A stretch of 58,872 nucleotides of DNA from Sphingobium boeckii (lineage in GTDB: Bacteria; Pseudomonadota; Alphaproteobacteria; Sphingomonadales; Sphingomonadaceae). The number at the start of each line of letters is the position of its first letter. The first letter of the stretch is position 1. Under the pieces are notes generated by a model, which was given only the letters and a program-made list of their open reading frames with translations, made no database searches and was not told the origin of the DNA. Of the stretch, positions 28,855 to 57,311 are shown in pieces. Location: contig NZ_JACIJC010000008.1 in the NCBI RefSeq assembly GCF_014199215.1, forward strand, positions 1 to 58,872. Reading direction: 5' to 3'. The translations under genes were made by a program, and so were the position numbers.

Positions 28855-28869
28855 CGCCGGCGCGGCTCC

Positions 28870-29733: not shown

Positions 29734-29745
29734 GGAATGATATCC

Positions 29746-30525: not shown

Positions 30526-30537
30526 CTTTATCTCCGT

Positions 30538-31551: not shown

Positions 31552-31786
31552 TTCCGCTCCCGCACTGCTCAATCTTCGCGTTTCCTGACCTTAGTGCGTT
31601 CGGCGCCCCAAGCTGCAATTACAAAGGTGCGGGGAGCGATAAGCAAAGCGGAAGCCGCGTGCGGCTGTGGCACCTCCGAATTTATGCCCTCGCATGGTCT
31701 TCATATTATCGTCCGAAATGCCGGCGTGCTTTCCCATCTGGAGCAGCCGCGCCCGTTATGGCCGGCGAATTGAACCAGAGGTAAAA

Positions 31787-32740: not shown

Positions 32741-32742
32741 AG

Positions 32743-33654: not shown

Positions 33655-33669
33655 GGACCGGAGAGACAC

Positions 33670-34590: not shown

Positions 34591-34665
34591 GCCGCCGCGC
34601 GCGCCCCATATTACCAGTCGGGGTGCGGGCTGACACCACTTCACCGCCCACGCTGAGTTGACCAG

Positions 34666-38998: not shown

Positions 38999-39709
38999 TT
39001 ATTTCAGTTCGAATTCGACAAGCTCGACCGTCGTCGTGCCGATGTTGCGCACGACGCGTTTTGGTCCTGCATCCTGCCAGAAGAAATCGCCCGGATCGAG
39101 GAACATGCCCCGATCGCGCTTGCCCTCTGAAATCTCCGCAATATCACCGCCCTTGACGACGATGCGCATTCCGGGTGCCGTTTGCGAAATGGCCGGCGCA
39201 CTTTGCCCGGGGGCGAGGATCAAACGCCAGGCGCGGACACGATCATTGTCGAGCACCTGCGTATAGCCCTCGCGAGGCTGCGGATTGAAGCCGTAAGGCG
39301 ACGGGCTTTTGAACACGGCCTGAAGCACCTTCATGGTGGTGGCGCCGCCATTCTGCCCGCGATTGATGAGCTGCTTCTTGGTGAAATTGCTGAAGGATAC
39401 GTCGCCCATATACGGACCCTTCCCGTTCGGACGGATCCGGTGCACCGGTTCACCCGGCTCCTGGCCCTCCGCCTCGGCCGGATAGTCGGCCATGTACACA
39501 CTGATCTGATCCTGGCGATGATGGTGGAAATCGGATCCACGCCCAGGCGGCATTTGAACCTTCAGCAAGGTGATGAACTCATTGCTGAAAACGGGCACAT
39601 GATAAGCGGAATCAACAAGCTCGACCGCCTCGTGGGTCGGCTGCGACAAAGCCACGCCGCCCATTGGCAGCAAGGCAAGAGCGCAAATCTTGAACAACGC
39701 TGAACGCAT
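38999..39709 (-). CDS. Exported cupin protein A
   Basis: A 236 aa protein with a Sec signal (residues 1 to about 22, LFKICALALLPMGGVALSQ). The mature chain is a bicupin: the first barrel has SDFHHHRQDQISVYM near 60 (His-rich metal site), the second begins DNDRVRAWRLILAPGQSAPA near 155 and closes VRNIGTTTVELVEFELK. The same layout, especially DNDRVRAWRL and the last 15 residues, recurs in the cupin at 40660-41364. Likely periplasmic; cupins of this sort may be dioxygenases, isomerases or binding proteins. Divergent from another exported cupin at 40058. Confidence 0.82.
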   Translation of the reverse strand: MRSALFKICALALLPMGGVALSQPTHEAVELVDSAYHVPVFSNEFITLLKVQMPPGRGSDFHHHRQDQISVYMADYPAEAEGQEPGEPVHRIRPNGKGPYMGDVSFSNFTKKQLINRGQNGGATTMKVLQAVFKSPSPYGFNPQPREGYTQVLDNDRVRAWRLILAPGQSAPAISQTAPGMRIVVKGGDIAEISEGKRDRGMFLDPGDFFWQDAGPKRVVRNIGTTTVELVEFELK

Positions 39710-40057
39710 GAACTATCATCCTCTCACGCTTCCGGGCCGCCCTTGTTGGCGCGCCGGACTGGTTACCGAAGAGCCGCTCATTTTTAAGCCGATCTCCCGG
39801 AGCCCCGATCGATAGAAGACACCGGGGTGATCTGCCCAATCAAATCGGCGTACCCCGCATAAGATCGTTGACCAGCACGCCCGGCCGCGGATTGCCGCCA
39901 TGCCGGTCAGCCAATCGCGGAGATCGGAGCCAATCTCATGCCCAGGACACTTTTTGTGATGGGATTGTGCGGCCTTTCAGCATTAGTCTTCCTTCAAACA
40001 GAATTCGCCGATTAGCAGTCCATCCGGACACGCAGCGCGGTGGAGAGGGAGCCGAGG
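39710..40057. promoter_or_regulatory. Divergent intergenic region between two exported cupin genes
   Basis: This 348-bp gap should hold promoters for the minus-strand cupin (start 39709) and the plus-strand cupin (start 40058). I see no coding frame of quality, no clear -35/-10 pair and no strong palindrome. Confidence 0.35.
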
Positions 40058-40633
40058 ATGAAAATGATCGACCGCACAGGATGCGCGCTGTTGTTGGCCG
40101 TGGCCCCCGCGCTTGCGTGCGCGCAAACGCCCGCAGCGCCGGCAAACCAGCAGCCATCGCCGGCCGAGCAGGCGATGATCGATGCCGCGCAGGCGGCTCC
40201 GCCTGCCTTTATTTCAGCCGAGCAGATCTCGGACTATATCGCTGAGGGCAGAGCGGCCGAAGCCGCCGGGCAGCCGTGGCAGACCAAGCCTCCCTTCATG
40301 AGAAGCGTCGGCGCGGTCGGGCCGTTCGTGCTGTCGATAGAATATCGCAATATTCCCGCGCCGGATTACACCATCCATCAGACGGAATACGAACTGTTCG
40401 TGGTGCTTGAGGGATCAGGCTCGATGCGGATCGGGGGCGAACTCAAGGATCCCTTTCGCTACCGTCGGACCAACCTTGCTTCGAAGGTCATCGTTGGTGG
40501 CGAAGAGCGGAAGATCAGCAAAGGCGATGTTCTGATGATTTCGCCGAAAACGGCACATGGCGTGAGCCAGTCCGATGGAAAGCTTGTTCTTCTGGCGCTT
40601 CACATGCCGCCGCCAGCCGCGCCTGAAAAATAG
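40058..40633 (+). CDS. Exported cupin protein B
   Basis: A 191 aa protein. Residues 1-22 form a Sec signal (GCALLLAVAPALACAQ). The rest is one cupin barrel: IHQTEYELFVVLEGSGSMRIG carries the His/Glu of motif 1, and GDVLMISPKTAHGVSQSD carries the motif 2 His. ATG at 40058 follows GAGG and AGGGAG. It is convergent with the cupin at 40660 and not closely like the other two. A periplasmic metal-binding role is likely; the reaction is unknown. Confidence 0.82.
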   Translation: MKMIDRTGCALLLAVAPALACAQTPAAPANQQPSPAEQAMIDAAQAAPPAFISAEQISDYIAEGRAAEAAGQPWQTKPPFMRSVGAVGPFVLSIEYRNIPAPDYTIHQTEYELFVVLEGSGSMRIGGELKDPFRYRRTNLASKVIVGGEERKISKGDVLMISPKTAHGVSQSDGKLVLLALHMPPPAAPEK

Positions 40634-40659
40634 ATTCGGGATGCCAGTTCGGCCCGCTT

Positions 40660-41364
40660 CTATTTGAATTCGTACTCGACCAATTCGATGCGGGTCGTTC
40701 CGGTGTTGCGCACGCTGCGTGTGACGCCGGGAGACTGCCAGTAAAAATGGTCGCCGCGCAGAATGACGCTTCGGCTTGGATGTCCCGCCGATAATTCCTC
40801 GAGTTCACCACCATCGATGACCACTCTTAAGCCGGGCGCGATCTGCGTTATCGCCGGCGCGCGTTCGCCCGGTTCGAGCGTCAATCGCCACGCGCGCACC
40901 CGATCATTGTCAATTTCCAGCTTATAGCCCTGAGCTGGGCGCTCGGCGGTTACAAAGCCCTGCGGATTGGCTGTGTTCAGTTCCAGGCAAATCTGGTGCA
41001 TCGGCAGGATACCGGGATTCACATCACGATGCGTATTCGTCGGCTTACCGAAATAGCTGACATAACTCAGGTCTCCGCGCTTGGGCTTGCGCGGTTTGCC
41101 CGGCGGGCCATTGAGCGGCTGGGTATATCCTTCGGGTGGATAGTCTTCCATCACCACGCAGGACATATCCTGACTATGCACATGATAGTTGGAGGCCTTG
41201 CCGGCCGGAATATCCATCCACAATATGGCAAGCAGCTCATTTTCGAACGCAATGGCGCGATACGATGCTTGCCGGTGCGGCACAGGCGCATCCTGCGATG
41301 CCGCGGATTTTTGGGCAAAGGCGAGGCCACACAGGGCTGTTGCAGCGAGCAAAATGTATTTCAT
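40660..41364 (-). CDS. Exported cupin protein C, paralogue of A
   Basis: A 234 aa protein with a Sec signal (YILLAATALCGLAFAQ). First barrel: SNYHVHSQDMSCVVM, with two of the His kept relative to protein A. Second barrel: DNDRVRAWRLTLEPGERAPA and VRNTGTTRIELVEYEFK, nearly matching protein A. The ATG at 41364 has GGAGAGA 6 nt upstream; in-frame codons further upstream have none. Divergent from the dienelactone-hydrolase-like gene. Duplication with a change at the metal site suggests the two have diverged in substrate or metal. Confidence 0.82.
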   Translation of the reverse strand: MKYILLAATALCGLAFAQKSAASQDAPVPHRQASYRAIAFENELLAILWMDIPAGKASNYHVHSQDMSCVVMEDYPPEGYTQPLNGPPGKPRKPKRGDLSYVSYFGKPTNTHRDVNPGILPMHQICLELNTANPQGFVTAERPAQGYKLEIDNDRVRAWRLTLEPGERAPAITQIAPGLRVVIDGGELEELSAGHPSRSVILRGDHFYWQSPGVTRSVRNTGTTRIELVEYEFK

Positions 41365-41641
41365 GCCTGTCTCTCCCCGTGCCTTCGCCGCTTGGGCATG
41401 GGGCCATCTGTAGTCCGGCGGCAATCTCCAGGCCCATAAAATCATGCTGCCGGCGCATCGGAACAGTTAAATGGCCAAGCAAATTGGCGGCATCGCCGCG
41501 CAGGGCGGCTTTGGCCGCAACGGTAATCGGTCATGGCAGTTTTTCTATGGCTGATTCGATTCCGGATGTGCCTAACTGACACCGCACCACGTCCACGCAA
41601 CGCGTCATGGAAAGGCGGGGGTGAAGCGGAGGAGGATTATC

Positions 41642-42607
41642 GTGAAGGTTCACATGCTTATGTTGCTGGGAGGCCTGAGCGCGCTCGGCCTGTCCAGCGC
41701 CGCCATTTCGCAACAGCAGACGGCATCGCCGGCGCAGGCAGGAGGAAGCACCGCCACGGCCTCGGGACAATCGGTTGAAGATATGCTGCTCGAAAAAGGC
41801 AAGCAGGGCAATCTCACGCTCGACGAAGTAATCCTGGTGGAGGAATTGCTCGGTGTCGACACTTGGCGCACGGCCAAGGTGGCCCTGTCTTCGCGCCGAC
41901 ATGAAGATATCACCATCACGCGCGATGGTCGCGAATTGGGTGCGCTTGTCGTCTATCCCGACAGGCCGGAAAAGGCGCCCGTTGTGGTGATGATCCCCGA
42001 GGATCAGGGGCTTAACCGGTGGGCGCGCGATATGGCCGATCAGATCGCCGCGATGGGCTATATCGTCGTCGCGCCCGATTTCCTTTACGGGCTTGCGCCC
42101 AATGGCAAAGGCGGCAGCGCATTTCCCGACGTGCGCAGCGTATTTTTGGCCCACCGCGCCAAAGTGAAGGATGATCTGGGCTGGACGGCGGATCTCAATG
42201 CCTGGGCCGATTATGCGCTAAAGCTGCCGCAGGCCAGCGGCAAACTGGCGGTCGTCGGCTTTGCCTGGGGCGGAGGACGTGCCGCCTGGTTCGCCACGTC
42301 GCGCAAGGACATCAGCGCCGCATTCCTTTTCTATGACGCCTTTCCGGCAGCCGCGCCGGTCGAAAATGTAACAGCGCCGGTTTATGGCTTTTATGCGGAA
42401 TTCGATCCTCGGGTGACACGGTCGCTCGAAGCCACCAAGGCCAGAATGGCCGCGGCGGGCAAGAGATATGAGCCGATCATGTACCCCGGATCCGAACATA
42501 TGTTCGTGCGCCTGGGGGATGAGCCGCGAAACAAGAATGTAGCCAATATCCTCGCGCGTCATGAATCGCTGGCACGGCTTCAGAAGCTGCTGGCGCAATC
42601 ATGGTGA
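41642..42607 (+). CDS. Exported dienelactone-hydrolase-like protein with Ala at the nucleophile
   Basis: A 321 aa protein starting at GTG 41642, chosen for GGAGGAGG 6 nt upstream. It has a Sec signal (MLMLLGGLSALGLSSAA) and a low-complexity linker to about 45. The DLH fold follows: IPEDQGL, GYIVVAPDFLYG, then VVGFAWGGGRAAW, where Ala208 occupies the Cys/Ser nucleophile site. The acid FYAEFDPRV (Asp255) and PGSEHMFVR (His286) are kept. The protein is therefore unlikely to hydrolyse esters in the usual way. A close relative with Ser is encoded at 50465-51361. Periplasmic. Confidence 0.83.
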   Translation: MKVHMLMLLGGLSALGLSSAAISQQQTASPAQAGGSTATASGQSVEDMLLEKGKQGNLTLDEVILVEELLGVDTWRTAKVALSSRRHEDITITRDGRELGALVVYPDRPEKAPVVVMIPEDQGLNRWARDMADQIAAMGYIVVAPDFLYGLAPNGKGGSAFPDVRSVFLAHRAKVKDDLGWTADLNAWADYALKLPQASGKLAVVGFAWGGGRAAWFATSRKDISAAFLFYDAFPAAAPVENVTAPVYGFYAEFDPRVTRSLEATKARMAAAGKRYEPIMYPGSEHMFVRLGDEPRNKNVANILARHESLARLQKLLAQSW

Positions 42608-42649
42608 CCGCGCAGCCATCGTCGCTCATGCTTCGCGTTTGACCTGCCA

Positions 42650-42684
42650 TCGGTATGCCGGAGAACGACCCTCCAGCATACCGA
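42650..42684. terminator. Hairpin between convergent genes, terminator candidate
   Basis: TCGGTATGCCGGAG (42650-42663) pairs with CTCCAGCATACCGA (42671-42684): 14 bp with one mismatch and a 7-nt loop. It lies between the stops of the DLH-like and cytochrome c genes. No T run is present. Confidence 0.55.
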
Positions 42685-42723
42685 GTCAGGCTGAAGGCGT
42701 CAGCGAACGAAAGCGGGACTCAC

Positions 42724-43080
42724 TTATCTGAGTGATTTGAGATAGGCGATGATCGCCGCGCGAGCCTTGGGATCGCGCATCCCGCCATAAACCATGCTCG
42801 TACCCGGCACCGTCTTGGACGGTTGCGCCAGATAGGCGTCAAGCTTCGCGTCGGTCCACACGATCTTCGCGGCCTTGAGCGCCTTTGAATAAACGAAGCC
42901 CGGCTTTGCTGCCGCTGGCTTGCCGGCAAGATTGCTCAGTTCAGGGCCGAGTTTTTTCGCGCCACCGGCTTTGATGGCGTGGCAGGTCGCGCATTGTCCG
43001 AAGGCCGGGGGAGCCGTCGATTGCGCCTGTGCAGGTGCGATCATGGCGACGAGAGGTATGAGAGGCAGAAGGGTACGCAT
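42724..43080 (-). CDS. Class I cytochrome c
   Basis: A 118 aa protein with a Sec signal (residues 1-20, LLPLIPLVAMIAPAQAQ), a single CATCH haem site near residue 30 and a probable axial Met in PGTSMVYGGM near 95. Size and pattern match soluble cytochrome c2-type carriers of the periplasm. It lies 12 bp downstream of the exported RraA-like gene, in the minus-strand run that begins with the molybdenum hydroxylase, so it may accept electrons from that enzyme. That pairing is inference. Confidence 0.9.
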   Translation of the reverse strand: MRTLLPLIPLVAMIAPAQAQSTAPPAFGQCATCHAIKAGGAKKLGPELSNLAGKPAAAKPGFVYSKALKAAKIVWTDAKLDAYLAQPSKTVPGTSMVYGGMRDPKARAAIIAYLKSLR

Positions 43081-43092
43081 CCGCTGCTCCGC

Positions 43093-43827
43093 TCAAAGAC
43101 GACCGAATTTGGCGACGGCTTCCTTGATCGACCGATATTGCTCGATGAAGGGATACATGCTGTGTTCCGTCCACTCGAGTTCGCGGGCCTTCTTCAATAT
43201 CTCGCCGGCGCGCGCGCGTGGCACCACGACGACCCCGTCCATATCGGCAACGATGATGTCGTTTGGCGAGACTTTGACCCCGTCGCAATCGACCGTGATA
43301 TTCGCACCCGCAAAACGGAAATGGTTGACCGTGGTGGATGGCACGATCGATTTGCTGAAGACAGGAAACTGGATCCTCTGGAGTTGCGGCGTATCACGCA
43401 CGCCACCATCCACGATCGCACCTGCCAGGCCGCGATTCTTCATCGTGGTCGACATGATGCCGCCGACACCGGCGAAGTCGGCATTGTCCTCGCCCTCCAG
43501 CACCATGACATAAACCGAGCCAACCGCTGCCGTGTCGATGGCGTCGAGCATCCCCTGAAGCGCGCCGCTGCCATCCTTATGCTCCTCGCGCTTGACCAGC
43601 ACCGTGACCGCCGGGCCGGCGAACTTGGTGGGAAACAAGGGGCGCATCTCATGCGACATGTAATTCCGCTCACCATACAATTGCTCCATCGCATCCGCGA
43701 CAGAGGAGACTTCGACCAGACGGAACGCTTCGATCATGGGGTCGCTCGCTGCGGGCGCTGCAGCAGGTTGCGCCGGCAGCGCGGTCGCCAGCATCATCGT
43801 GGCAAGAATTGTAATCGTGGCTTTCAT
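43093..43827 (-). CDS. Exported RraA-family (CHA/HMG aldolase-like) protein
   Basis: A 244 aa protein with a Sec signal (ITILATMMLATALPAQ) followed by a complete RraA-like fold. The aldolase motifs are kept: GGIMSTTMKNRGLAGAIVD near 122 and GGVRDTP (Arg144, Asp145), the residues that bind oxalo/pyruvyl substrate and metal in 4-carboxy-4-hydroxy-2-oxoadipate aldolase. Such aldolases (LigK/GalC) are normally cytosolic, so export is odd. It precedes the cytochrome c gene by 12 bp and follows the sugar kinase gene by 30 bp in the same operon. Confidence 0.83.
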   Translation of the reverse strand: MKATITILATMMLATALPAQPAAAPAASDPMIEAFRLVEVSSVADAMEQLYGERNYMSHEMRPLFPTKFAGPAVTVLVKREEHKDGSGALQGMLDAIDTAAVGSVYVMVLEGEDNADFAGVGGIMSTTMKNRGLAGAIVDGGVRDTPQLQRIQFPVFSKSIVPSTTVNHFRFAGANITVDCDGVKVSPNDIIVADMDGVVVVPRARAGEILKKARELEWTEHSMYPFIEQYRSIKEAVAKFGRL

Positions 43828-43857
43828 GGCTTTTCCTCACATGACACTTGTTGAACC

Positions 43858-44868
43858 CTAACGCTGCACGTCCCGACCCCCGACGAGCGCCCTGTCTATA
43901 TCGGCCTGACTGAATTGGGACGCATCGCCGGGCACGCTATGCTTGAGGGCCGCCAGCGCCAGTCCGCTCCGCGCGGCGCTTTCAAGGTCTCCCTCGTGAT
44001 TTGCCAGGCTGTGGAGAACCCCGGCCACAAAGGCGTCGCCGGCACCGATACGATCGATAATGCCGTGCAGGGCAAGGTTGGCAGTTTCAAAGAAACGATC
44101 GCGCGCATCAATCCGGGCAGACATATGATGCGTGTCCACCTCGGCCGCGTCACGGCATGTGGAGGCCATGAGCTTGAGATTGGGGAAAGCGCCGAAAGCG
44201 GCCTTTACGGCTTTGCGTCTGTCCTCCTGGCAATCGCCGGCATGATCTCCACCGAGCAACAATGCGACGTCGCGATGATTGCCGAACAGGATATCGACCA
44301 GGCTCACAATTTCGCCAAGGATGGCGGACGCATCGCAATCCCATGCCTGCCACAATGTGGCGCGATAATTCGGATCGAAAGAGATCGTCAAATTCCGTTT
44401 GCGCGCTTCGCGCACTGCCGCCAGCGAGACTCCGGCCGATTTCGGCCCGAGCGCGGCGGTGATCCCGGAAAGATGAAGATGATCGGCCTGATCGAACGCG
44501 CGATCCCAATCATAATCCTCCGCACCCGCCCGCGCGAAAGCACTGTCGGCGCGATCGTAAATGACCTCCGAAGGACGAAGGCCAGCGCCCTGGGTCATGA
44601 AATAGAGCGCCATCCGTCCGGCGCCCCGGCCGACGTTGCTGCAATCGACGCCCGCGCCCTGCAGCGCCCTGATGGAAATATCGGCCACCGCGTTGTCGGG
44701 TACGCGCGATACCATATACACCGCATGACCAAGGCCGGCGAGGCCGATGGCGACATTGGCCTCCGCGCCCCCTGGCCAAAGATCGACATTGCCGCTCTGC
44801 GGAAGCAATTGCCGGTTTGGAGGGGTCAGGCGGATCAGCAACTCGCCGAAGCACACGAAACGTGTCAT
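43858..44868 (-). CDS. PfkB-family sugar kinase (2-keto-3-deoxygluconate kinase type)
   Basis: A 336 aa cytosolic kinase. It begins FVCFGELLIRLTPP, then LWPGGAEANVAIGLAGLG near 35 (sugar site), ISFDPNYRATLW near 170 and the PfkB signature IIDRIGAGDAFVAGVLHSL near 290 with the catalytic Asp. This pattern fits KDG kinases, which phosphorylate 2-keto-3-deoxy-sugar acids. ATG at 44868 overlaps the MFS stop by 4 nt. Coupling to an ACS-type carrier suggests import and phosphorylation of a sugar acid, the cytosolic end of the exported module. Confidence 0.87.
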   Translation of the reverse strand: MTRFVCFGELLIRLTPPNRQLLPQSGNVDLWPGGAEANVAIGLAGLGHAVYMVSRVPDNAVADISIRALQGAGVDCSNVGRGAGRMALYFMTQGAGLRPSEVIYDRADSAFARAGAEDYDWDRAFDQADHLHLSGITAALGPKSAGVSLAAVREARKRNLTISFDPNYRATLWQAWDCDASAILGEIVSLVDILFGNHRDVALLLGGDHAGDCQEDRRKAVKAAFGAFPNLKLMASTCRDAAEVDTHHMSARIDARDRFFETANLALHGIIDRIGAGDAFVAGVLHSLANHEGDLESAARSGLALAALKHSVPGDASQFSQADIDRALVGGRDVQR

Positions 44869-46151
44869 GCCTCCAACCTGTCCTCCGGATCGATCATCAG
44901 CCATGCGCCTGCGCCACAAAGGCAGATGGCAGCAGCAAGCAGAAATGATGGCGTCCAGCCATATCGATCGGCCAGGAACGGGGTCAGCGATGCAGTCAAT
45001 ATCCCCGCGATCTGGTTGCACATGTTCATGAAACCCGAAACCGAGCCCGCCGAATTTCCGCCCAGATTGGCCGAAAGCGTCCAATACGCGCTTTGAGAGA
45101 GATAGAGCGACCCGGCCCCGCCAGCGAGAAACAGCACCGCCACCTCGGCACTATCGACCTGCGTGGCCGCAGCGACGAAAATCGCCGCAAGCGCCAGGGA
45201 CGCGGCCGCTGTCCAGCAACGTCCTTTGCGCTCCCCATAGCGCGGTGCCAGCCGGTCGCTGATCCATCCGCCAAGCGGTGATGCGAGCGCCATGGCGATG
45301 AAAGGGAGCATCCCGTAAATCGCGCTCGCCTTGAGATCGAGCCCGCGCACCTTCGAAAGGTAAAGGAAGAACCAGGTGAAAAAGATGTAGGCGACATAGC
45401 CGAATGCGAAATAGCTCGCAGCGAGAAACCCCACGGATTTCTGCCGGATGATCATGCTCCAGGTCGCCGGCTTTCCGCGCGCCGCGGCCGTCATGCCATT
45501 TTCGATCAGAGACAGCTCTGCCTGTGTCATCAGCGGATGATCCCGGGGGCGGTCACGGATCAGCAGCAACCAGATGGCCAGCACGACCAGGCCGATTAAT
45601 GCGCTCGCATGAAAGGCCCATTGCCAGCCATAGGTGACCATAATGAAGATGATCAACGGGGGCGCGATGCCGGCGCCGATGCCGACGCCAGCGAAAATAA
45701 TGCCATTGGCAAGACCACGCTCTCCGGCAGGAATCCAGTTTGCCACCAGACGGTTGCTGGCGGGAAAGATCACAGCCTCACCGATACCCAGCAGGAAGCG
45801 CACGGCGATCAAGGCCGTCAGAGAGAATGGAAAACCGCTGGGAACGAGGGCCGTGGCCACGGTGAAGAGGCTCCACCAGATAATTCCGAAGGCGATGACC
45901 CGATAAGGCCCGAAGCGATCTGCAATTCGTCCCGCGATCGGCTGGGTCAGCGCATAACCCATCACGAAAGCGCTGAACACGCCACCGAGCTGGACGTTGG
46001 AAAGACCGAACTCCTCCTGAATGGCGGCAGCGGCAATCGATATGTTGTTGCGATCGAGATAGGAAACGGCTGCAACGATGAACATCCAGAAGACGACCAT
46101 CCAGCGCACGTTGCCAAACCCCTTGGCGCGTGGCGACACAGCAACCGTCAT
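44865..46151 (-). CDS. MFS transporter, anion:cation symporter (ACS) type
   Basis: A 428 aa inner-membrane carrier with about 12 TM segments. YLDRNNISIAAAAIQ in TM1 and GRIADRFGPYRVI after TM2 mark the ACS family (hexuronate ExuT, galactonate, 4-hydroxyphenylacetate, phthalate). RFLLGIGEAVIFPASNRL in TM4-5 is also typical. Translationally coupled to the KDG-type kinase, so a sugar acid is the first guess for substrate. It lies 270 bp downstream of the molybdenum hydroxylase gene on the same strand. Confidence 0.87.
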   Translation of the reverse strand: MTVAVSPRAKGFGNVRWMVVFWMFIVAAVSYLDRNNISIAAAAIQEEFGLSNVQLGGVFSAFVMGYALTQPIAGRIADRFGPYRVIAFGIIWWSLFTVATALVPSGFPFSLTALIAVRFLLGIGEAVIFPASNRLVANWIPAGERGLANGIIFAGVGIGAGIAPPLIIFIMVTYGWQWAFHASALIGLVVLAIWLLLIRDRPRDHPLMTQAELSLIENGMTAAARGKPATWSMIIRQKSVGFLAASYFAFGYVAYIFFTWFFLYLSKVRGLDLKASAIYGMLPFIAMALASPLGGWISDRLAPRYGERKGRCWTAAASLALAAIFVAAATQVDSAEVAVLFLAGGAGSLYLSQSAYWTLSANLGGNSAGSVSGFMNMCNQIAGILTASLTPFLADRYGWTPSFLLAAAICLCGAGAWLMIDPEDRLEA

Positions 46152-46337
46152 GGCATCGGCTGACGTGCAAAGGGGGCACGCACACCGCCGGACAAATCGG
46201 TAACCACGCCCATCCTGATCCTCCCTGTCGTTTTCTGATTTCGTATCTTCAATAGGTGCGCAGATGGTGCGGGGGTGGCATTAAAAATGCGTTCGTCGCC
46301 ATGTGATCATCGCGTTCAGAGGCCGCGAAGGCGACGC

Positions 46338-46353
46338 AACGGTGCAAACCGTT
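46338..46353. promoter_or_regulatory. Short inverted repeat upstream of the MFS-kinase operon
   Basis: AACGGT and ACCGTT form a perfect 6-bp inverted repeat around GCAA, about 190 bp before the MFS start codon in a 270-bp gap. It could be an operator or a weak hairpin after the molybdenum hydroxylase gene. Support is slight. Confidence 0.25.
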
Positions 46354-46421
46354 TCGCGCGCCGCCACCGGCTGCAAGATCTGAAACGCCGTGAGTGTGCG
46401 GGCACCCGGCGCAGCTTTCGC

Positions 46422-48611: not shown

Positions 48612-49077
48612 CAACCGCCTCCATCTTGCCAGCGGCGTTGAGTATCGCCTTTTGAATCCGGTCATAGGTCGCGCAGCGGCAGATATTGCCTGACATGCCG
48701 GACACGATATCTTCGTGCCCCGGCTTGGGCGTTTGCTGAAGCAGCGCCGCGGCGGACATGATCTGCCCGGCCTGGCAATAGCCGCATTGTGCGACATCGA
48801 TATCGAGCCAAGCCTTTTGCAGCCTTTGCCCGACCGGCGTGGCACCAACGCCCTCGATCGTTACGATCTTGGCGGTGCCCACATCCGAAATTGGCAGCGA
48901 GCACGATCTTTGTGCCTGCCCATCAACGTGAACGGTGCAAGCGCCGCACACACCCATGCCGCATCCAAACTTGCTGCCCACAAGGCCCAGTTCGTTTCGC
49001 AATACCCATAAAAGGGGCATTTCCGGTGCGACATCGACACTGCGCCGCTTGCCATTGATGGTCAGAGTGTAATTCAT
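48601..49077 (-). CDS. 2Fe-2S subunit of the molybdenum hydroxylase (IorA-like)
   Basis: A 158 aa protein with both clusters of the family: a plant-ferredoxin type FGCGMGVCGACTVH plus a later Cys in RSCSLP, and a helical domain with QCGYCQAGQIM and GNICRCATYD. No signal of its own; in this enzyme class it is carried through the Tat system with the catalytic subunit. It starts the minus-strand run and its promoter lies in the AT-rich gap upstream. Confidence 0.92.
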   Translation of the reverse strand: MNYTLTINGKRRSVDVAPEMPLLWVLRNELGLVGSKFGCGMGVCGACTVHVDGQAQRSCSLPISDVGTAKIVTIEGVGATPVGQRLQKAWLDIDVAQCGYCQAGQIMSAAALLQQTPKPGHEDIVSGMSGNICRCATYDRIQKAILNAAGKMEAVDAA

Positions 49078-49337
49078 GGGGCTCTCCGCGCGGGAAGTCT
49101 CAACAGGCTTGCCATAGCCAATCTACATTAATTCATTTTTTGAATCCTTCAATTTGATTTTGCGAACAAAATTATTTTAAGTTAATCTGCTGGATGAACG
49201 CAAAATCGCAAACCTGTTGCAATAAGAAAATGATAATACCCATAAGAAAACTGGATGATTTATTTAATTCATAGATTTAATTCTATGTGTTGATGAATTA
49301 ATGGCAGAAAAGATTTAACAGAATTTAGGAATTGCTT
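49078..49337. promoter_or_regulatory. AT-rich divergent control region with repeated TTAATTCAT
   Basis: This 260-bp gap between the 2Fe-2S gene (minus) and the metallo-beta-lactamase-fold gene (plus) is far more AT-rich than the GC-rich genes around it, especially 49121-49335. TTAATTCAT occurs at 49128-49136 and 49264-49272, with its exact complement ATGAATTAA at 49293-49301. Inside the last pair lies a second inverted repeat, CATAGA-TTTAAT-TCTATG (49270-49287). This looks like a control region with operators for both operons, or DNA bound by a nucleoid protein. Confidence 0.6.
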
Positions 49338-50444
49338 ATGAAATTCTCTATTTTTCTCGCGCTCGGAGCGCTTGCATTCCCTATCGGGATCGGGGTCAAC
49401 GCACAGCAATTGACCGAGGAGCAAGCCGCCGGCTTTGGGCCTCAGGACGATATACAGCCGGAGATCACGGCAAAAGCGAAATCCCATTTCGACGCGGCAA
49501 AGCGCGCCGCGCGCCGCGATCTCATCGGCCCGCTCCAGCTCTGCAATGATGCGCGCCCGGTGGGCACCAAATGGGATTTGCCGAAAGCGGATATATTGCG
49601 CGGCGCAGGCCCGACCAATGCCGAATTGTGGCGGATGAAGAAGACGCTCGCCGAATTCATCGCGGGCGGCGGTAATTATCGTCCTGCGCCTGCGCCCACC
49701 CGCATGTTCGATAATTTCTATTATGTGGGCGTCGAGAATGTCAGCGCCTGGGCGGTCGATACGTCGGAGGGAATCATCCTGATCGACACGCTCAACAACA
49801 AGGGCGACTGGATCGAACGGATCGAACCCGGAATGCAAAGGATCGGCCTCGATCCGGCGCGTATCAAGTATATCGTGCTGACGCATGGGCATGGTGATCA
49901 TTTTGGCGGCGCCGCCTATCTCAAGGACAAATATGGCGCGCGTGTTCTGATGAGCAAGGTCGATTGGGATCTCGCACCAGGAATGCTCGACAAACCCTAT
50001 TTCGGTGCCCCTCCAGCGCAAGATCTGATGATCGAGGATGGCCAGTTGCTTACATTGGGAGGGCAGACCATCCGGATGTACCTGACCCCGGGCCATACGC
50101 GCGGTACCGCTTCGCTGCTGATCCCGGTGACAGACGGGGGCAAGAAGCACGTTATTGCGTTGTGGGGCGGCACGGGTTTCAATTTCCCGCACACGCCTGA
50201 CCGCTTCAAAACCTATTCTGATTCGGCGATCCGCTTTCGGAAATATGCCGCCGCCGCGCGCGCAGATGTCATATTATCGCCACATGCGGACTTTGACGGC
50301 ACGATCCGTAAACTGGCTGACCTGCAAAGCCCGAAGAAGGGCGCACCGCATCCGTTTGTTTTGGGCAAGGACGGCGTGCGGCGATATCTGACGATCCCGA
50401 ACGAATGCGCGCTCGCCTATAGCGCGCAATTGCGCACCCGATAA
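49338..50444 (+). CDS. Exported metallo-beta-lactamase-fold hydrolase
   Basis: A 368 aa protein with a Sec signal (residues 1-22, FSIFLALGALAFPIGIG). The MBL core begins near 127 (NFYYVGVENVSAWAVDTSEG) with the metal motif LTHGHGDHFGGA (His183, His185, Asp187, His188), then TPGHTRG near 258. The layout resembles subclass B3 enzymes, but a 100-residue N-terminal extension precedes it. Two divalent metals are likely; the substrate could be a lactone, ester or beta-lactam. ATG at 49338 has AGGA 7 nt upstream. The DLH-like gene follows after 20 bp. Confidence 0.87.
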   Translation: MKFSIFLALGALAFPIGIGVNAQQLTEEQAAGFGPQDDIQPEITAKAKSHFDAAKRAARRDLIGPLQLCNDARPVGTKWDLPKADILRGAGPTNAELWRMKKTLAEFIAGGGNYRPAPAPTRMFDNFYYVGVENVSAWAVDTSEGIILIDTLNNKGDWIERIEPGMQRIGLDPARIKYIVLTHGHGDHFGGAAYLKDKYGARVLMSKVDWDLAPGMLDKPYFGAPPAQDLMIEDGQLLTLGGQTIRMYLTPGHTRGTASLLIPVTDGGKKHVIALWGGTGFNFPHTPDRFKTYSDSAIRFRKYAAAARADVILSPHADFDGTIRKLADLQSPKKGAPHPFVLGKDGVRRYLTIPNECALAYSAQLRTR

Positions 50445-50464
50445 TCGTTTCGAAGGAGAAGATC

Positions 50465-51361
50465 ATGAAGCCTTGGCTATTGGGAGCTATCGCGATCGCG
50501 CTGCCGGTTTACGCCCAGAATTCGATCCCGGCACCCGGCGTTTCGCCAAGCACCTATGCAAGCCATCAAAGCGAACAGGCTTGGGCAACCGCCAAGCTCG
50601 CCAAATCGCCGCGGCGCAGCACTTGGGTAAAGCTCCAGCTTGGCGACCGCACGTTGCGCGCCTTCGTCACCTTCCCGCAGACGAACAAGAAGGTGCCGGT
50701 CGTCCTTGTTTTGCACGAAGTATTCGGGCTGACCGAATCGACGCGAAATACCGCTGATCAGATCGCAGCCATGGGCTATATAACGATCGCGCCCGATATG
50801 GTGTCGGGCCAGGCGCCCAATGGCGGCGGCGTTGCCTCTTTCGAAAATTCGACGCTCACCAGCGCCACGGTTACGGGGCAATCGCATCAATCCGTTAATG
50901 CGCAGATCGACGCCTGGGCCGATTATGGACTCAAGCTCCCGCACGCCAACGGCAAACTCGCGCTCGTCGGCTTGTCATGGGGCGGTGGCGCAACCTTCCG
51001 ATATGCGACCTATCCTGCCTATAACCCGGCGCTGAAGGCCGCCTTTGTCTTTTATGACATCGGCCCTCCCATCTTCAACCAAGGCCCAAATCGCGCCAAC
51101 AATCCGCCGCTTCCGGTCGATACCATCAAAGTGCCGATCTATGGCTTTTATCCGACCAAGGACACGCGCGTGATGAATAGTTTGCAGGCGACGAAGGATG
51201 CCATGGCCAAGGCCGGCAAGGCGTTTGATCCCGTCCTCTACGAAAATGCCGATCACGCCTACATGCGCTATGGCGAGGATCCCCGTGACCCGAATCCGGC
51301 CAACAAGGCGGCTGTCGAGGCCTCTATGGCAAGGTTGAAGGCGTTGCTCGCCGCCATGTAG
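50465..51361 (+). CDS. Exported dienelactone-hydrolase-like protein (Ser nucleophile)
   Basis: A 298 aa protein with a short Sec signal (MKPWLLGAIAIALPVYAQ). DLH fold: VLHEVFGLT near 83 (Glu86), ITIAPDMVSG, VGLSWGGGATF (Ser171 in place of the usual Cys), GFYPTKDTRV (Asp233) and ENADHAYMR (His264). The triad is complete, so hydrolysis of a lactone or ester in the periplasm is plausible. AAGGAGAAG precedes the ATG. It is in one operon with the MBL-fold gene and is a relative of the Ala variant at 41642. Confidence 0.87.
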   Translation: MKPWLLGAIAIALPVYAQNSIPAPGVSPSTYASHQSEQAWATAKLAKSPRRSTWVKLQLGDRTLRAFVTFPQTNKKVPVVLVLHEVFGLTESTRNTADQIAAMGYITIAPDMVSGQAPNGGGVASFENSTLTSATVTGQSHQSVNAQIDAWADYGLKLPHANGKLALVGLSWGGGATFRYATYPAYNPALKAAFVFYDIGPPIFNQGPNRANNPPLPVDTIKVPIYGFYPTKDTRVMNSLQATKDAMAKAGKAFDPVLYENADHAYMRYGEDPRDPNPANKAAVEASMARLKALLAAM

Positions 51362-51379
51362 GGCGACGCAGACAGGGCA

Positions 51380-52027
51380 TCAGAGCTTGCTTGAAACGGC
51401 GGCTGCGCCGGCGGCGGCGCACGCTTCATCCTGCTCTGCGGTCGCGCCGCTGACCGCGATGGCACCAATCACCTTGCCATCGGAAATCAGAGGCACGCCA
51501 CCCGGAAAGAGCGTCATGTTCGGCCTCACGCGCAGCAAAGTGGCATAGTCCTTCGCCCGCAATTTTTCCCGGACTGCGGACGTGGGTTCGCCGAATTCGA
51601 TCGCCGCGATATTCTTGCGCACCGCATTGTATATGCGCCCCGGATTGGCCCCGCTCATCTGCAGCCCCACCACCATGACACCGAGCGAATCCGAAACGGC
51701 GGTGCCGACTTTCAAATCGTCCGCTCGGCACTTTTCGAGCGCTGCCTGGGCTGCTTCCAGCGCGATATCGAGCGACGGGCCTGATATGACGGCGCGTGGT
51801 GCAGGCGCGCGCGGCCCGGTCGTGCCCTGAATCGCCAAAGCGATGGCGAGCGGCGGCGGCAGATTATCCCCCGGCAAGGAAATCGGATCGCGCGCAACGG
51901 GCGTCGGGGCGGGCGGCGCTGGAATCGTGATCGCCGCCGGCAGCGTATCCTGAGCGATGGCGCGGCCATTCTGGATACAAGTGACGGCGCAGACCGCGCC
52001 CAGAAGGATGATCCGTTTCACTCGCAT
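51380..52027 (-). CDS. Exported GlcG/HbpS-family protein
   Basis: About 215 aa with a Sec signal (residues 1 to about 26), a Pro-rich linker and a GlcG/HbpS (DUF336) domain from about 90: LDIALEAAQAALEKCRADDL, AVSDSLGVMVVGLQMSG, FPGGVPLISDGKVIGAIAVS and EQDEACAAAG. Such proteins bind haem or small ligands and often sit beside catabolic genes with unknown role. Start is uncertain: ATG 52027 used here; GTG 52021 is better spaced from AGGAG, and GTG 52039 is possible. Last gene of the TonB-receptor run. Confidence 0.8.
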   Translation of the reverse strand: MRVKRIILLGAVCAVTCIQNGRAIAQDTLPAAITIPAPPAPTPVARDPISLPGDNLPPPLAIALAIQGTTGPRAPAPRAVISGPSLDIALEAAQAALEKCRADDLKVGTAVSDSLGVMVVGLQMSGANPGRIYNAVRKNIAAIEFGEPTSAVREKLRAKDYATLLRVRPNMTLFPGGVPLISDGKVIGAIAVSGATAEQDEACAAAGAAAVSSKL

Positions 52028-52051
52028 TCTCCTGGCCACGTTTTTGGGGAT

Positions 52052-52486
52052 CTAGCGGCGCAATGCCGTATTCTGCCAGGCGATCAGCAGCCATCGGTGG
52101 CCTTGGCGACGATAGACGCCAATGATGCGCGCAATCCGGGGCTTTCCGTCACCGATGTCATAGGCGGCCACACCATGAGTCACGCCCATTTTTCCGTAAA
52201 TCCGGGATGAGCGCTCGGAGAGCACAGCCCCGCGCACGGGGATCGAGGGCGCGCGAAGCGCCTTCAAATACTCCTCCTTGGTTTGCATCAAGCCCGAGGC
52301 GTGACCATAAGCCAACTCATCACCGAAGCTGTCCGCAACAGATCGCCAATCGCCACGAACCTCGGCTTCGAACCGATCCGTTTCCGCCTTCAGCAATGCG
52401 GTCTCGCCCACGCTATGCGCCTGCGCCATCACCGGCGCGCTGATCAGAGCCATCGCCATAAGCAACGCCCCGCGCCAGGGCTTCAT
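52052..52486 (-). CDS. Exported NTF2-like (DUF4440) protein
   Basis: A 144 aa protein with a Sec signal (WRGALLMAMALISAPVMAQA) and an NTF2-like cone fold: LLKAETDRFEAEVRGDWRSV, then GDELAYGHASGLMQTKEEYL, and YRRQGHRWLLIAWQNTAL at the end. The fold serves as small-molecule-binding or isomerase/dehydratase scaffold. I chose ATG 52486 (GGAG 5 nt upstream) because it gives a clean signal; an open frame extends 41 codons further. 24 bp before the GlcG-type gene. Confidence 0.78.
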   Translation of the reverse strand: MKPWRGALLMAMALISAPVMAQAHSVGETALLKAETDRFEAEVRGDWRSVADSFGDELAYGHASGLMQTKEEYLKALRAPSIPVRGAVLSERSSRIYGKMGVTHGVAAYDIGDGKPRIARIIGVYRRQGHRWLLIAWQNTALRR

Positions 52487-52656
52487 CCAGGCTCCGACGA
52501 TGGCCGCAAGATTCATCCTCTTGCGATCACGGAGCGCTTTGCTGACGTTCATATCGCGTCTCGCTTGATCGTTGTTCATATCGTGCATACCCGATTGCGA
52601 AATGTTCATAGGTGGGCGCGGTGATCCGAACTGATGCCATCATGATGATGATGGTT

Positions 52657-53424
52657 TCAGTTTTTACGCCCCATGATCAGCACGGTATCAAACCGCTGCC
52701 ACACGACTTGCGCGTCGAACCCAGCCGCCTTGAGCGCTGCATAATGATCCGCGATCGTCGGAGTCTTATAGTCCGGGTGATGAACCGGCGGCCCCTCGAT
52801 CATGGCGACAAGCCCATCCCGGTTGGCCGCGCTGCGGCCGGCGCTCAGCCGCGTCTCCCATGCCGCGCCACCAAATCCGATATGATCGAGATTAACGACC
52901 CAGCCGCCCGAAGGCACCATATCGCTTGCAAGCTGGTAGAATTTCTTGATGCCCTCGCCATTCTGATGGATCGAGATCCAGGACGATACCAGAATATCGA
53001 CGCCCCCAGGCACGCAGCCGAGGCTGATATCCCGTCCCGGGCAGCCGATCTTGTAATCGATCCGATCGCCGAAACGGCCAAGCCGCCGGTTCGCCTTGAC
53101 GCGATTATTCTCGACCGGTTCGGTCCACTGGCCGCGCGCCTTGGGCAAGGCGTCCATGAACGCTTCGAGAAACTCGCCTGTGAACGATCCGACATCGACG
53201 ACAAGCTTCGCCTGCGGACGGTCGTTCGCCACGATCGCCGCCGCAATCCGGCGCGCCGATCCAAGCCGGTCGCCGGCCGGCTCACGGGGGTTGACCGCCT
53301 CATAGGGAATGAGGATGTCCGGGTTCGCCGATGGCGCTGCCGTGGGAGACTGTGCGCTTGCCGGCAGAGCATAGGCGCTCAGAGCACCCAGCAACAATCG
53401 AAGACTGGCCATCGCTTTTGGCAT
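52657..53424 (-). CDS. Exported class I methyltransferase-fold protein
   Basis: A 255 aa protein with a Sec signal (ASLRLLLGALSAYALPASAQ) and a Rossmann methyltransferase domain: motif I KLVVDVGSFTGEFLEAFM near 73, DILVSSWISIH near 137 and GGWVVNLDHIGFGG near 165. AAGGA lies 7 nt before ATG 53424. Export is unexpected because SAM is cytosolic, so the fold may bind another ligand, or the helix may be a membrane anchor. Downstream of the TonB receptor by 97 bp in the same direction. Confidence 0.8.
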   Translation of the reverse strand: MPKAMASLRLLLGALSAYALPASAQSPTAAPSANPDILIPYEAVNPREPAGDRLGSARRIAAAIVANDRPQAKLVVDVGSFTGEFLEAFMDALPKARGQWTEPVENNRVKANRRLGRFGDRIDYKIGCPGRDISLGCVPGGVDILVSSWISIHQNGEGIKKFYQLASDMVPSGGWVVNLDHIGFGGAAWETRLSAGRSAANRDGLVAMIEGPPVHHPDYKTPTIADHYAALKAAGFDAQVVWQRFDTVLIMGRKN

Positions 53425-53521
53425 TGTGCATCCTTCTTCGAGCCGCAATTGTTTCCGAAATTCCGCTGCTGTCGGAGCAGGGCATGGCAACCGCCACCCC
53501 CCGCTCCTATCGCAGTTTGGA

Positions 53522-56479
53522 TCAGAATTTGGCGCGCACACCCGCTGTAAAGTAACGGCCGATCGCGTCATCACCCGGTGCCACACCATTCAAGCCTGGG
53601 AACGGTGCTGTCGAGGGGTTGGCGAATATCGCCGGCTTTTGATCGAACAGATTCTGCACGTTGAAGAAGAATTCCGACGGACCCGTCCTGAAAGCCACGT
53701 TCAAATTCGTATAAAACCGCGCTGGAATGTTCTTCGGCGCATCGAGGAGGACGAACGTCGGCGCCCCGGCCCCTTCATAGCTCGGATACCAGTTCAGTTT
53801 GCCGCGATAGCGTTCCTGCACGCCGATCCTGATGTTGTCGGTGACATCCATGTTCGCGATCAGGGTTCCGCGCCACTTGGCATGGCCTGATCCCACCACG
53901 GACCCGGATCCGGCTCCGGCGTTGTTCGTCTGCAACCCGTTCAGGGCGTCTACCAGCACGTTTTCGGGCTGATAGCTGACCAGCAATCGCAAATTGGAAG
54001 GCCGTCCAACGATATCCTTGGTGTAATTCAGCTCGAAATCCGCCCCCTTGGTGAACTGCCGGCCAATGTTGATGGGTCGGCTGAAGGCCCGAATGATCTG
54101 ATTATTCGGTGCGTTGGTGCAGCAATTGCCCTGTGCCCGCACGATCAGAGCGCATGTCGCCGAGGCACCGCCGCTGTTGATGCAATCGAGCTGCGTTGCG
54201 GCATCGATGCCGTTCAGCAAGACGATGGCATCTTTGACCCGGATATCGAAATAATCCAGCGCAACGCTCAGGCCGGGGGCCCAGCTTGGCGTATATACAA
54301 AACCGACGGTGAAGGAGTCGGCGCGCTCGGGCCGGAGCGATTCATTGCCCGACAATATGTTGCCTGCGGGGCTCGGCCTGCCGTTTGCACCATCGAGAGC
54401 GATACCCAGCAACTCGTCACGACCGCCGAAATTTCCCACTGACTGTGGCTGGAAGAGTTCGTGCAGCGTTGGTGCGCGAATGTCGCGAGACCGTGTGGCC
54501 CGGAAACGGAGGTCGTCGATCGGGCTCCAGTCCAGTCCGGCCTTCCAGCTAGAGATGCCACCGCTGGTCGAATAATGGGTGTAACGATAGGCAGCGCTGA
54601 TCGACAAATCCCGCACGAACGCGACATCCCGCAGCAGCGGCACACTGGCTTCCAGCGCGGCTTCCTTCACCGACACCGAAATTTCGGGCCGCGAGAGCGA
54701 TTCCGCCTGAAAATATTCCAGACTGGTCGGTGTGCAGGTGATCAGACGCAGGCCCGTGCAATCCAGCGGATTGGCAAGGGTCGCCGGCGTGCTGCCGCTG
54801 ATGACCTCATAGGTCAGCTTTCGTGCCTGCGCCGATAGCGCGACATTGACCGGCCCTGCCCAGGTGCTGAAAGGAGAACCCGACACGAAGCCTTCCAGAT
54901 CGGTCATCTTCGTCTTGGTCGTCACATTGAGCGGATCGAAGATCCAATCGGCCTCAGCCTCGCTGATCGTTGGCCCAAAGATGCTCGCATAGGGTACGCA
55001 GCCCGGATAAAGGCTCGCGAACTGCGGCTGAGTGGATACGTAGCATACAGGCGAACCCGTCCCATTGGGATTGGGCACTGCATCGAGCGCCGCGGCCAAT
55101 TTTTTGCCGTTAATGGCATTGGTCTGCTGCACGCGCAGCTTGTTGCTGCTGTGAAGCGCTGCCAATTCCCACTTCCAGGTGCCGCCGAACGTGCCGTTAA
55201 AGCCGACGTCGATCGACCAATTCTCTCCAAAAGCCTTCGTCAACTGGCGATACTGATCCATGCCCGGACCGCTATGCACCTTGTTGATCCCGAACCGCGT
55301 CACACCGGCGGCTGTCATCTGGCCGGCAATTGCGGCGGGGAGGTAAGGGTTCGTAACGAATATGGGGTGGACGTTGCTGCCATTCGCCGCGACGTAAGTC
55401 GGATTGGAAATGGCGAAGCCCGCATTGTCGTTTTTGGTATAGGCGCCGCGAATATAAAAGCGGACCGATTCCGCCAGTTCATAGTCAAAGCGGCCATAGG
55501 CCTGATGCTTTTCCATCGAGCTCTTGAGCGAGGGCTCGAAATAGGAACCGGTGCTGTTGCCCGCCACGTTGGAATTGACGAAATCTCCAGTCACGGGTGC
55601 CAGGACGCCCGGGCTCGCGAAATAGAATCCGTTAAACGGATTGGCCGGCGCGCCTATGCTGGAAATGGTGCCCCCGAACGATGCGCCCGGACGACCCGCG
55701 AGCGACACAAATCGCTGCGTCGTGACACCCGCCACCGTGCCGACCGTGCCGATCTGATAGCGCTTGCGCCCCCATTCCCGCGCGGAACGATGATCGATGC
55801 CTTCGTCATTGCGAAATTGATAGCTCATCAGCAGATGCGCGCGATCGCCCAGATCGCCGCCCCAGGCCAGGCCGATATCCTGGGTTCCGCCATCGCCGCG
55901 CGACGAGATGCCGGCAAAGGCATTGACCTTGAGGCCGTTGAACCGCGTATCGGTAATGAAGTTGACCACACCGGTCACGGCATCGGAACCATAGACCGCC
56001 GAGGCGCCCCCGGTCACCACGTCCACCCGCTTGAGAAGCAATTGCGGGATCATGTCGATATCGACGGTGCCATTGGGCGAATTGGGTGCCACGCGATGGC
56101 CATCATAAAGAATGAGGTTACGGGTAAAGCCGAAGTTGCGAAGATTGAGCACATTGGCTTGCGCGTTGGGAACACCCGTGTTGGCGCTCCCCGCTTCGGC
56201 ACGGCTGCCCTGCCCCTGGGAACCTGAGAATTGCGGCAATTCGTTCAACTGGTCGGCAAGATTGCCCGGCTTGACCTCGGCCATTTGCTGGGTGGAGATG
56301 ACAGTCACCGGCGTAGGGCTGTCGTCACCATTGGCCGCCACACGCGAGCCGGTTACGATGATATCGCTCTCCGCAACCTCGGATTCCTGTGGCGCCTGGT
56401 CAGACTGAGCAAAGGCATGGGTCGATACAGCGAACACGCTGACGCACCCCAGTAAAGCGATGCCACGAAGCCTCTTCAT
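53522..56479 (-). CDS. TonB-dependent outer-membrane receptor
   Basis: A 985 aa receptor of the Oar/CirA-like type common in sphingomonads. It has a signal peptide (GIALLGCVSVFAVSTHAFAQ) and a TonB-box-like ESDIIVTGSRV near 40. The plug domain follows (TPVTVISTQQMAEVKPGNLA, VDVVTGGASAVYGSDAVTGV), then a long beta-barrel ending AGVRAKF with the terminal Phe of outer-membrane proteins. GGGGAGG precedes the ATG. It heads the run with the methyltransferase-fold, NTF2-like and GlcG-type exported proteins, so it likely admits the substrate of the periplasmic module. Ligand unknown. Confidence 0.93.
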   Translation of the reverse strand: MKRLRGIALLGCVSVFAVSTHAFAQSDQAPQESEVAESDIIVTGSRVAANGDDSPTPVTVISTQQMAEVKPGNLADQLNELPQFSGSQGQGSRAEAGSANTGVPNAQANVLNLRNFGFTRNLILYDGHRVAPNSPNGTVDIDMIPQLLLKRVDVVTGGASAVYGSDAVTGVVNFITDTRFNGLKVNAFAGISSRGDGGTQDIGLAWGGDLGDRAHLLMSYQFRNDEGIDHRSAREWGRKRYQIGTVGTVAGVTTQRFVSLAGRPGASFGGTISSIGAPANPFNGFYFASPGVLAPVTGDFVNSNVAGNSTGSYFEPSLKSSMEKHQAYGRFDYELAESVRFYIRGAYTKNDNAGFAISNPTYVAANGSNVHPIFVTNPYLPAAIAGQMTAAGVTRFGINKVHSGPGMDQYRQLTKAFGENWSIDVGFNGTFGGTWKWELAALHSSNKLRVQQTNAINGKKLAAALDAVPNPNGTGSPVCYVSTQPQFASLYPGCVPYASIFGPTISEAEADWIFDPLNVTTKTKMTDLEGFVSGSPFSTWAGPVNVALSAQARKLTYEVISGSTPATLANPLDCTGLRLITCTPTSLEYFQAESLSRPEISVSVKEAALEASVPLLRDVAFVRDLSISAAYRYTHYSTSGGISSWKAGLDWSPIDDLRFRATRSRDIRAPTLHELFQPQSVGNFGGRDELLGIALDGANGRPSPAGNILSGNESLRPERADSFTVGFVYTPSWAPGLSVALDYFDIRVKDAIVLLNGIDAATQLDCINSGGASATCALIVRAQGNCCTNAPNNQIIRAFSRPINIGRQFTKGADFELNYTKDIVGRPSNLRLLVSYQPENVLVDALNGLQTNNAGAGSGSVVGSGHAKWRGTLIANMDVTDNIRIGVQERYRGKLNWYPSYEGAGAPTFVLLDAPKNIPARFYTNLNVAFRTGPSEFFFNVQNLFDQKPAIFANPSTAPFPGLNGVAPGDDAIGRYFTAGVRAKF

Positions 56480-57250: not shown

Positions 57251-57311
57251 TCGATGATGGACCGGATTGGCCTTGCCATCCGGTCCGCCATTCCCGAAGG
57301 TCGTTTCACCT

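Follow-up and report, generated by a model that had tools for sequence, protein, structure and literature searches.

Can a bacterium break down a compound outside its cytoplasm with enzymes of families that usually work inside it? The question is raised by a run of 16 genes, here lettered A to P, at positions 38999 to 56479 of the Sphingobium boeckii contig NZ_JACIJC010000008.1, the whole of which (58,872 bases) is the window analysed. A sequence-only reading had seen in them a module for import across the outer membrane, oxidation and hydrolysis in the periplasm, and then uptake and phosphorylation. Our own tentative reading, to which we give a little under an even chance, is that they form a laterally assembled catabolic island for a sugar-acid-like compound (an aldonate, a uronate, their lactone or a conjugate).

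Gene families were assigned with Pfam and NCBIfam, and for some genes through PDB sequence matches. Export signals were called by a rule, used in place of SignalP, that requires a basic n-region, an uncharged hydrophobic 10-mer and an AxA-type cleavage site. Passages of a study of Novosphingobium aromaticivorans (PMC3608174) report observed signal-peptide removal for 25 proteins, with the same three hallmarks. All 16 genes were found, as follows (ORF, open reading frame; KDG, 2-keto-3-deoxygluconate; MBL, metallo-beta-lactamase; Tat, twin-arginine translocation).

A, 38999..39709, minus: exported cupin; rule-based signal; Cupin_2 at 20 bits (cut-off 27.2); 42% identical to C
B, 40058..40633 (ORF 40040-40633), plus: exported Cupin_2 protein; Cupin_2 4e-8, above cut-off; signal
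C, 40660..41364 (ORF 40660-41445; ATG at 41364), minus: exported cupin, paralogue of A; signal MKYILLAATALCGLAFA
D, 41621..42607, plus: exported DLH-fold protein without the nucleophile (GFAWG); DLH 1.7e-27; signal from the GTG start only
E, 42724..43080, minus: cytochrome c; Cytochrom_C 1.3e-8; CATCH motif; signal
F, 43093..43827, minus: exported RraA/aldolase-like protein; RraA-like PF03737 2.2e-36; signal
G, 43858..44868 (ATG at 44868), minus: cytosolic KDG-type PfkB kinase; PfkB PF00294 2.6e-35; GAGDAF
H, 44865..46151, minus: MFS carrier of the galactonate/hexuronate-like group; MFS_1; TIGR00893 at 251 bits, under the cut-off of 395
I, 46422..48611 (ATG at 48611), minus: Tat-signalled molybdenum (Mo) hydroxylase large subunit; MoCoBD_1/2; LTRRAFLSASLLAGG
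J, 48601..49077, minus: 2Fe-2S small subunit, no signal; Fer2/Fer2_2; cluster motifs
K, 49332..50444, plus: exported B3-like MBL-fold hydrolase; Lactamase_B 3e-22; HGHGDH; signal
L, 50465..51361, plus: exported DLH with a Ser nucleophile (GLSWG); DLH 2.6e-29; triad residues; signal
M, 51380..52039, minus: exported HbpS/GlcG-like protein; HbpS-like 4.5e-29; signal
N, 52052..52609 (probable start 52516), minus: exported DUF4440/NTF2-like protein; DUF4440 4e-11; signal
O, 52657..53424 (ATG at 53424), minus: exported protein with weak methyltransferase resemblance; weak PDB matches; signal
P, 53522..56479, minus: TonB-dependent receptor; Plug and barrel domains; signal

The rule calls a signal in 12 of the 16 genes. 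It misses I, whose longest ORF begins 79 codons early; read from the ATG at 48611, I starts with the Tat signal LTRRAFLSASLLAGG, which brings the count to 13 of 16. The three genes without a signal are the carrier H, the kinase G and the 2Fe-2S subunit J, the last of which is expected to travel with its Tat-signalled partner I. Both the count and the exceptions agree with the sequence-only reading. As a control, 20 stretches of about 20 kb each from the same genome (399 kb) gave 81 signal calls in 344 genes, with a maximum of 7 per stretch; the control excludes rows with third-position G+C under 0.55, and its rate is probably lowered by ORFs called on the wrong strand. The same gene caller gives 15 rows in the region, dropping the 2Fe-2S gene and taking a wrong-strand ORF for the kinase, and the like-for-like count is then 12 of 15 rows. 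Binomial probabilities of 1.8e-6 (at least 13 of 16) and 2.0e-5 (at least 12 of 16) overstate independence, since TonB loci attract exported genes. The rule also yields false positives (e.g., Rossmann-type starts elsewhere in the window) and depends on the choice of start: D is called exported from the GTG at 41621, not from the ATG at 41654. By these calls, the predicted share of export-signalled genes is well above the genome background.

An RraA-like protein with kin in Acidobacteriota

The evidence that F belongs to an exported lineage comes from its relatives. F-like RraA proteins match at 1e-50 in 17 of 297 Acidobacteriota genomes. Within the Sphingomonadaceae, 31 of 298 genomes match at 1e-20, the S. 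boeckii genome included, and the others show at most 36% identity. A scan of genome contigs with two peptide patterns returned six matches, all in Acidobacteriota, which does not exclude other phyla. We collected 21 distinct Acidobacteriota loci (L076 duplicates L033), and in 19 of these the RraA is exported by the rule. Two of the 19 calls have doubtful starts: in L038 a signal-like stretch follows the start, and in L033 the call holds for an upstream start only and not for the annotated one. In the two remaining loci, L078 and L089, a hydrophobic stretch, read by eye, lies further into the ORF before the conserved domain.

We built a tree from F, the 21 Acidobacteriota rows, 28 of 29 sphingomonad loci and one Caballeronia row, with other phyla unsampled and long branches flagged. 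F is nested in the exported Acidobacteriota group and joined to 11 Granulicella-type rows at 95/95. This placement supports kinship of F with an exported Acidobacteriota RraA lineage, and probable transfer. We rejected a reading of the direction or donor of transfer from this tree, given its limited sampling and long branches. By identity the closest proteins to F are of the Bryobacterales type (67-72%), and their loci are without the unit described next.

Eleven of the 21 distinct loci (L033, L039-L041 and L077-L083) share a Granulicella-type unit composed of an exported RraA, an H homologue, a RidA and a pyridoxal phosphate (PLP) protein. The H homologues are 44-49% identical to H, those of L080 and L081 being cut by the end of the stretch. 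Within the fetched stretches, a TonB-type receptor is present in 9 of the 11 loci, a class V PLP protein in 8, an amidohydrolase in 8 and a lactonase in 6. L089 has RidA, PLP and amidohydrolase matches and no H. Across the 11 loci and L089, the RidA carries a twin-arginine motif in 12 of 12, and so does the PLP protein in 11 of 12; that of L033 was read by eye, having been missed by the rule. The L033 amidohydrolase passes its model (396 against a cut-off of 371). As an observation in its own right, the unit is apparently an extracytoplasmic route for amino-sugar acids.

The Granulicella-type unit resembles the S. boeckii genes in its same-clade exported RraA, its H homologue (11/11), its neighbouring TonB-type receptor (9/11) and its normally cytosolic families with export signals. 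It differs from them in giving no tblastn match to the other 14 window genes, and in having DgaE-like PLP enzymes and RidA, neither of which was recognised among the 16 genes by Pfam or NCBIfam. The sequence-only reading had made much of the normally cytosolic character of the families; RraA and DLH proteins do carry export signals here, but their subfamilies are export-signalled in Acidobacteriota too, so that export appears to be a property of the lineage and not a local oddity. In a search of open-licence PubMed Central literature, no description turned up of this module, of exported RraA or of a DgaE/RidA unit with export signals.

Partial counterparts and sources of the other genes

Parts of the same architecture recur elsewhere: an outer-membrane receptor, an exported dehydrogenase with cytochrome c, exported hydrolases or cupins, an MFS carrier and a kinase. 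Novosphingobium humi has homologues of P (29%), K (44%) and G (45%) grouped in a 6.5-kb span, with the K homologue standing between the TonB receptor and the kinase. This hexuronate cluster of N. humi (L044:12657-18974) also holds a galactonate dehydratase relative (228 bits, cut-off 311) that bears an export signal and is flanked by the three homologues, a glucuronate isomerase above its cut-off, and a fructuronate-reductase-like protein and an ExuR-like regulator below theirs. It shares with the window the receptor, the exported B3-like MBL protein and the KDG-type kinase; it differs in its isomerase, reductase-like and regulator genes, and in giving no tblastn match to F, I/J, the cupins or the DLH proteins. 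On plasmid pSRL1 of Sphingobium indicum (L145:9881-17905), an H homologue (48%) accompanies a TonB receptor, two exported cupins and an exported SMP-30 lactonase, and adjoins exported pyrroloquinoline quinone (PQQ) proteins and cytochromes c. The likeness lies in the receptor, cupins, lactonase, cytochromes c and carrier, whereas PQQ proteins stand where the window has a Mo hydroxylase and the cupins give no tblastn match to A, B or C. In Sphingomonas sp. NY01, the best plasmid homologue of G (54%) has manD and uxaC as neighbours; in Pantoea a 29% homologue of C, a distant A/C-type cupin, lies beside a cytochrome c/sugar dehydrogenase set.

The oxidase genes resemble those of periplasmic Mo hydroxylase-cytochrome c dehydrogenases of the nicotinate and isoquinoline type. 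They have in common the Tat-signalled large subunit, the signal-less 2Fe-2S subunit and a cytochrome c in the locus; the difference here is that cytochrome c has a small gene of its own, 3.3 kb past that of the large subunit. The best plasmid relatives of I are in sphingomonads, with 52% identity in Novosphingobium sp. RL4, where a J homologue adjoins the I homologue.

A DLH profile finds only the S. boeckii genome among the 298 family genomes at 1e-40 and among 279 Pseudomonadota at 1e-30, but 24 of 139 Acidobacteriota at 1e-30; plasmid matches to D are at best about 33% identical. Close relatives of the pair D and L were thus found, by sequence similarity, in Acidobacteriota only among the groups searched, and the neighbourhoods of these relatives hold no other window genes. 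O was found only in its own genome among the 298 at 1e-8, and not by plasmid tblastn; 24 Acidobacteriota genomes gave no match either, in a search without a positive control, so that absence is not shown. Cupin C was found only in its own genome among five of the genus at 1e-10. The cupin profile (A3) matches 5 of 337 genomes of the class including S. boeckii, and the other four neighbourhoods share no further window gene; in six Acidobacteriota genomes it gave one weak partial match with an internal stop (7e-7). An Acidobacteriota-like origin of the cupins is not shown by that single match. Plasmid relatives of H come from Granulicella (49.1%) and Sphingobium (47.8%), and we rejected an Acidobacteriota derivation of H, the Sphingobium relative being nearly as close.

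This scatter of nearest relatives, in Acidobacteriota (F, D, L), Novosphingobium (I/J) and sphingomonad uronate loci (G), is what would be seen if there were no single pathway at all, and exported genes of various sources had collected near a TonB receptor, divided among several transcription units with different uses. Alternating strands, and a set that occurs whole in no relative searched, point the same way. We regard this explanation as quite unlikely: partial sets of the gene families recur in other organisms, and the export share exceeds the background. A single dedicated pathway is plausible, though unproven.

Weighing the sugar-acid reading

Several observations count against the sugar-acid reading. 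The 16 genes are several units on both strands and not one operon (A minus; B plus; C minus; D plus; E-F-G-H and I-J minus; K-L plus; M-N-O-P minus), and no regulator was recognised among them by Pfam or NCBIfam. The sequence-only reading had made conservation in relatives its own test, and the complete set is in none of those searched, which counts against that reading. Family models also fall short: kinase G scores 79.9 bits against 400 (NF040938) and 174.4 against 440 (NF041332) in the KDG-kinase equivalogs, I matches several Mo-hydroxylase models with every one under its cut-off, and the DgaE model, run on the L033 PLP proteins only, gives 156.7 and 161.4 bits against 385.3. The RraA found in Caballeronia has no export signal and has MFS genes and a KDG-type kinase (217 bits, cut-off 400) as neighbours, so that a link to sugar acids is not in itself a sign of a periplasmic reaction. 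In Blastomonas, ring-hydroxylating dioxygenase genes are found near the best plasmid relative of P (38%).

Two active sites belong with these points. D has Ala at the nucleophile (GFAWG), a position occupied by Cys in all 14 Acidobacteriota relatives aligned (15 loci were fetched, and the relative from L138 did not enter the alignment); D is probably non-catalytic. For F, the relevant passages of PMC5065237 identify R123 and D124 as the catalytic Arg and the metal-ligand Asp of the P. putida aldolase, most homologues of which carry one of two motifs. R144-D145 of F align with this pair in the HMG/CHA aldolase and are kept. The aldolase metal motif is D-x20-RD or G-x20-RD-x2-E/D; F reads G-x20-RD-x2-Q, with Gln in place of the second acidic residue. 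F thus shares with the LigK/GalC HMG/CHA aldolase (PDB 3NOJ) the RraA fold family and the active-site Arg and Asp, and differs from it in its export signal, in lacking the acidic residue of either motif, and in scoring far under the LigK equivalog cut-off (98.7 against 304.5 bits). What stands of the module first proposed is the export excess and the recurrence of its architecture in parts; the missing whole set, the two strands, a probably dead D, the altered metal motif of F and the weak methyltransferase label of O tell against the rest.

Residues of this kind could also mean that several exported members, D, F and O, are binders or sensors and no longer enzymes: D has lost its Cys, F has Gln in its motif, and O lacks DxGxGxG. 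We consider this improbable. The Gln is common to 17 of the 21 distinct Acidobacteriota relatives of F, the other four having D or E, and being conserved it may be functional. Elsewhere motifs are intact: haem in E, Mo and iron-sulphur in I and J, PfkB in G, and the zinc motif HxHxDH in K (HGHGDH at 185). L keeps a complete nucleophile-Asp-His triad (GLSWG, KDTRV, ADHAYM) with Ser instead of Cys.

A further alternative is an island for an aromatic or plant phenolic compound, such as a glycoside or a lactone, to whose breakdown the Amdase/FAH-type genes at 27-36 kb and an HpcH/HpaI aldolase at 38 kb would contribute. F would then either act as a pyruvate aldolase on a product of ring cleavage or be a relic. 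Aromatic catabolism is a classical setting for the DLH and RraA/LigK families, and P has its best plasmid relative in the dioxygenase setting noted above. The flank at 27114-38925 encodes an Amdase, an FAA hydrolase, an SDR, two amidohydrolase_2 proteins, a glyoxalase-type protein, two MFS carriers and the aldolase:

38041..38925, plus: HpcH/HpaI aldolase without signal, possibly associated; HpcH_HpaI 7.8e-21

Further upstream are flavin adenine dinucleotide (FAD) monooxygenases, an Amdase, an IclR regulator and an aldehyde dehydrogenase. The flank is a probable aromatic-type catabolic cluster beside the island, and as such counts against the sugar-acid reading as well. We nonetheless judge the aromatic alternative unlikely, though by no means negligible. 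Only 2 of 11 rows in 27114-38925 are called exported, both doubtfully, so that export appears to stop at the island edge. Kinase G is of KDG type and H belongs to a sugar-acid MFS group, and the linkages of F, G, H and K elsewhere indicate sugar acids. Because of the partial linkages in Acidobacteriota, N. humi, Caballeronia and pSRL1, a sugar-acid substrate seems likelier than an aromatic one.

Proposed route and its meaning

From the observed gene content, rule-based export signals, active-site residues, partial linkages and position of F in the sampled tree, we infer the substrate, the order and every reaction of the following route. The TonB receptor P would import the compound across the outer membrane, and the Tat-signalled Mo hydroxylase I/J would then act in the periplasm, oxidising a sugar or aldehyde group, with a likely electron acceptor in cytochrome c E. 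The hydrolases L and K would open lactones or esters, the cupins A, B and C may isomerise or bind intermediates, and the exported F would act on a 2-oxo-3-deoxy acid. The acid would be taken up by H, phosphorylated by G, and cleaved by an aldolase of the 2-keto-3-deoxy-6-phosphogluconate (KDPG) type encoded elsewhere in the genome. That genome has two PF01081 (KDPG-type aldolase) matches above cut-off, which could complete the KDG kinase route. M, N and O are given no part in this scheme.

Most of the family assignments made from the sequence held up in Pfam and NCBIfam. The nearest solved relative of G is KDG kinase (PDB 2AFB, E 2e-52). Cupin C gave no domain match by itself and takes its label from its identity to A. 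The label of O as a methyltransferase is weak and unproven: O has no Pfam or NCBIfam match, its best match to PDB methyltransferases has E 0.035, and it contains DVGSFTG. AlphaFold gave unusable models for O as a single protein (mean predicted local distance difference test, pLDDT, 40) and for the A/C cupin pair (mean pLDDT 38). K as a subclass B3 beta-lactamase was rejected (130.3 bits against an equivalog cut-off of 240). At 57267-58232, near the contig end, lies a protein with HEPN and nucleotidyltransferase domains. A scan of the window found no tRNA and no Rfam family reaching its gathering score.

The usual assumption is that aldolases, PLP lyases and RidA work in the cytosol. It is possible, though we hold it doubtful, that sugar acids can have both their C-C and their C-N bonds broken extracytoplasmically. 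On this view a sphingomonad would have acquired an exported lineage of RraA-type aldolases, found in conserved Acidobacteriota units with exported DgaE-like PLP proteins and RidA, and would have rebuilt it into a new extracytoplasmic catabolic module together with cupins, a Mo hydroxylase and exported hydrolases of lactones. Should the exported enzymes be active, the periplasm would be the site of some sugar-acid catabolism, possibly also of an aldol cleavage that forms pyruvate. This would have consequences for cross-feeding and for the annotation of such pathways, and it would provide a concrete case of exported catabolic enzymes shared between phyla.

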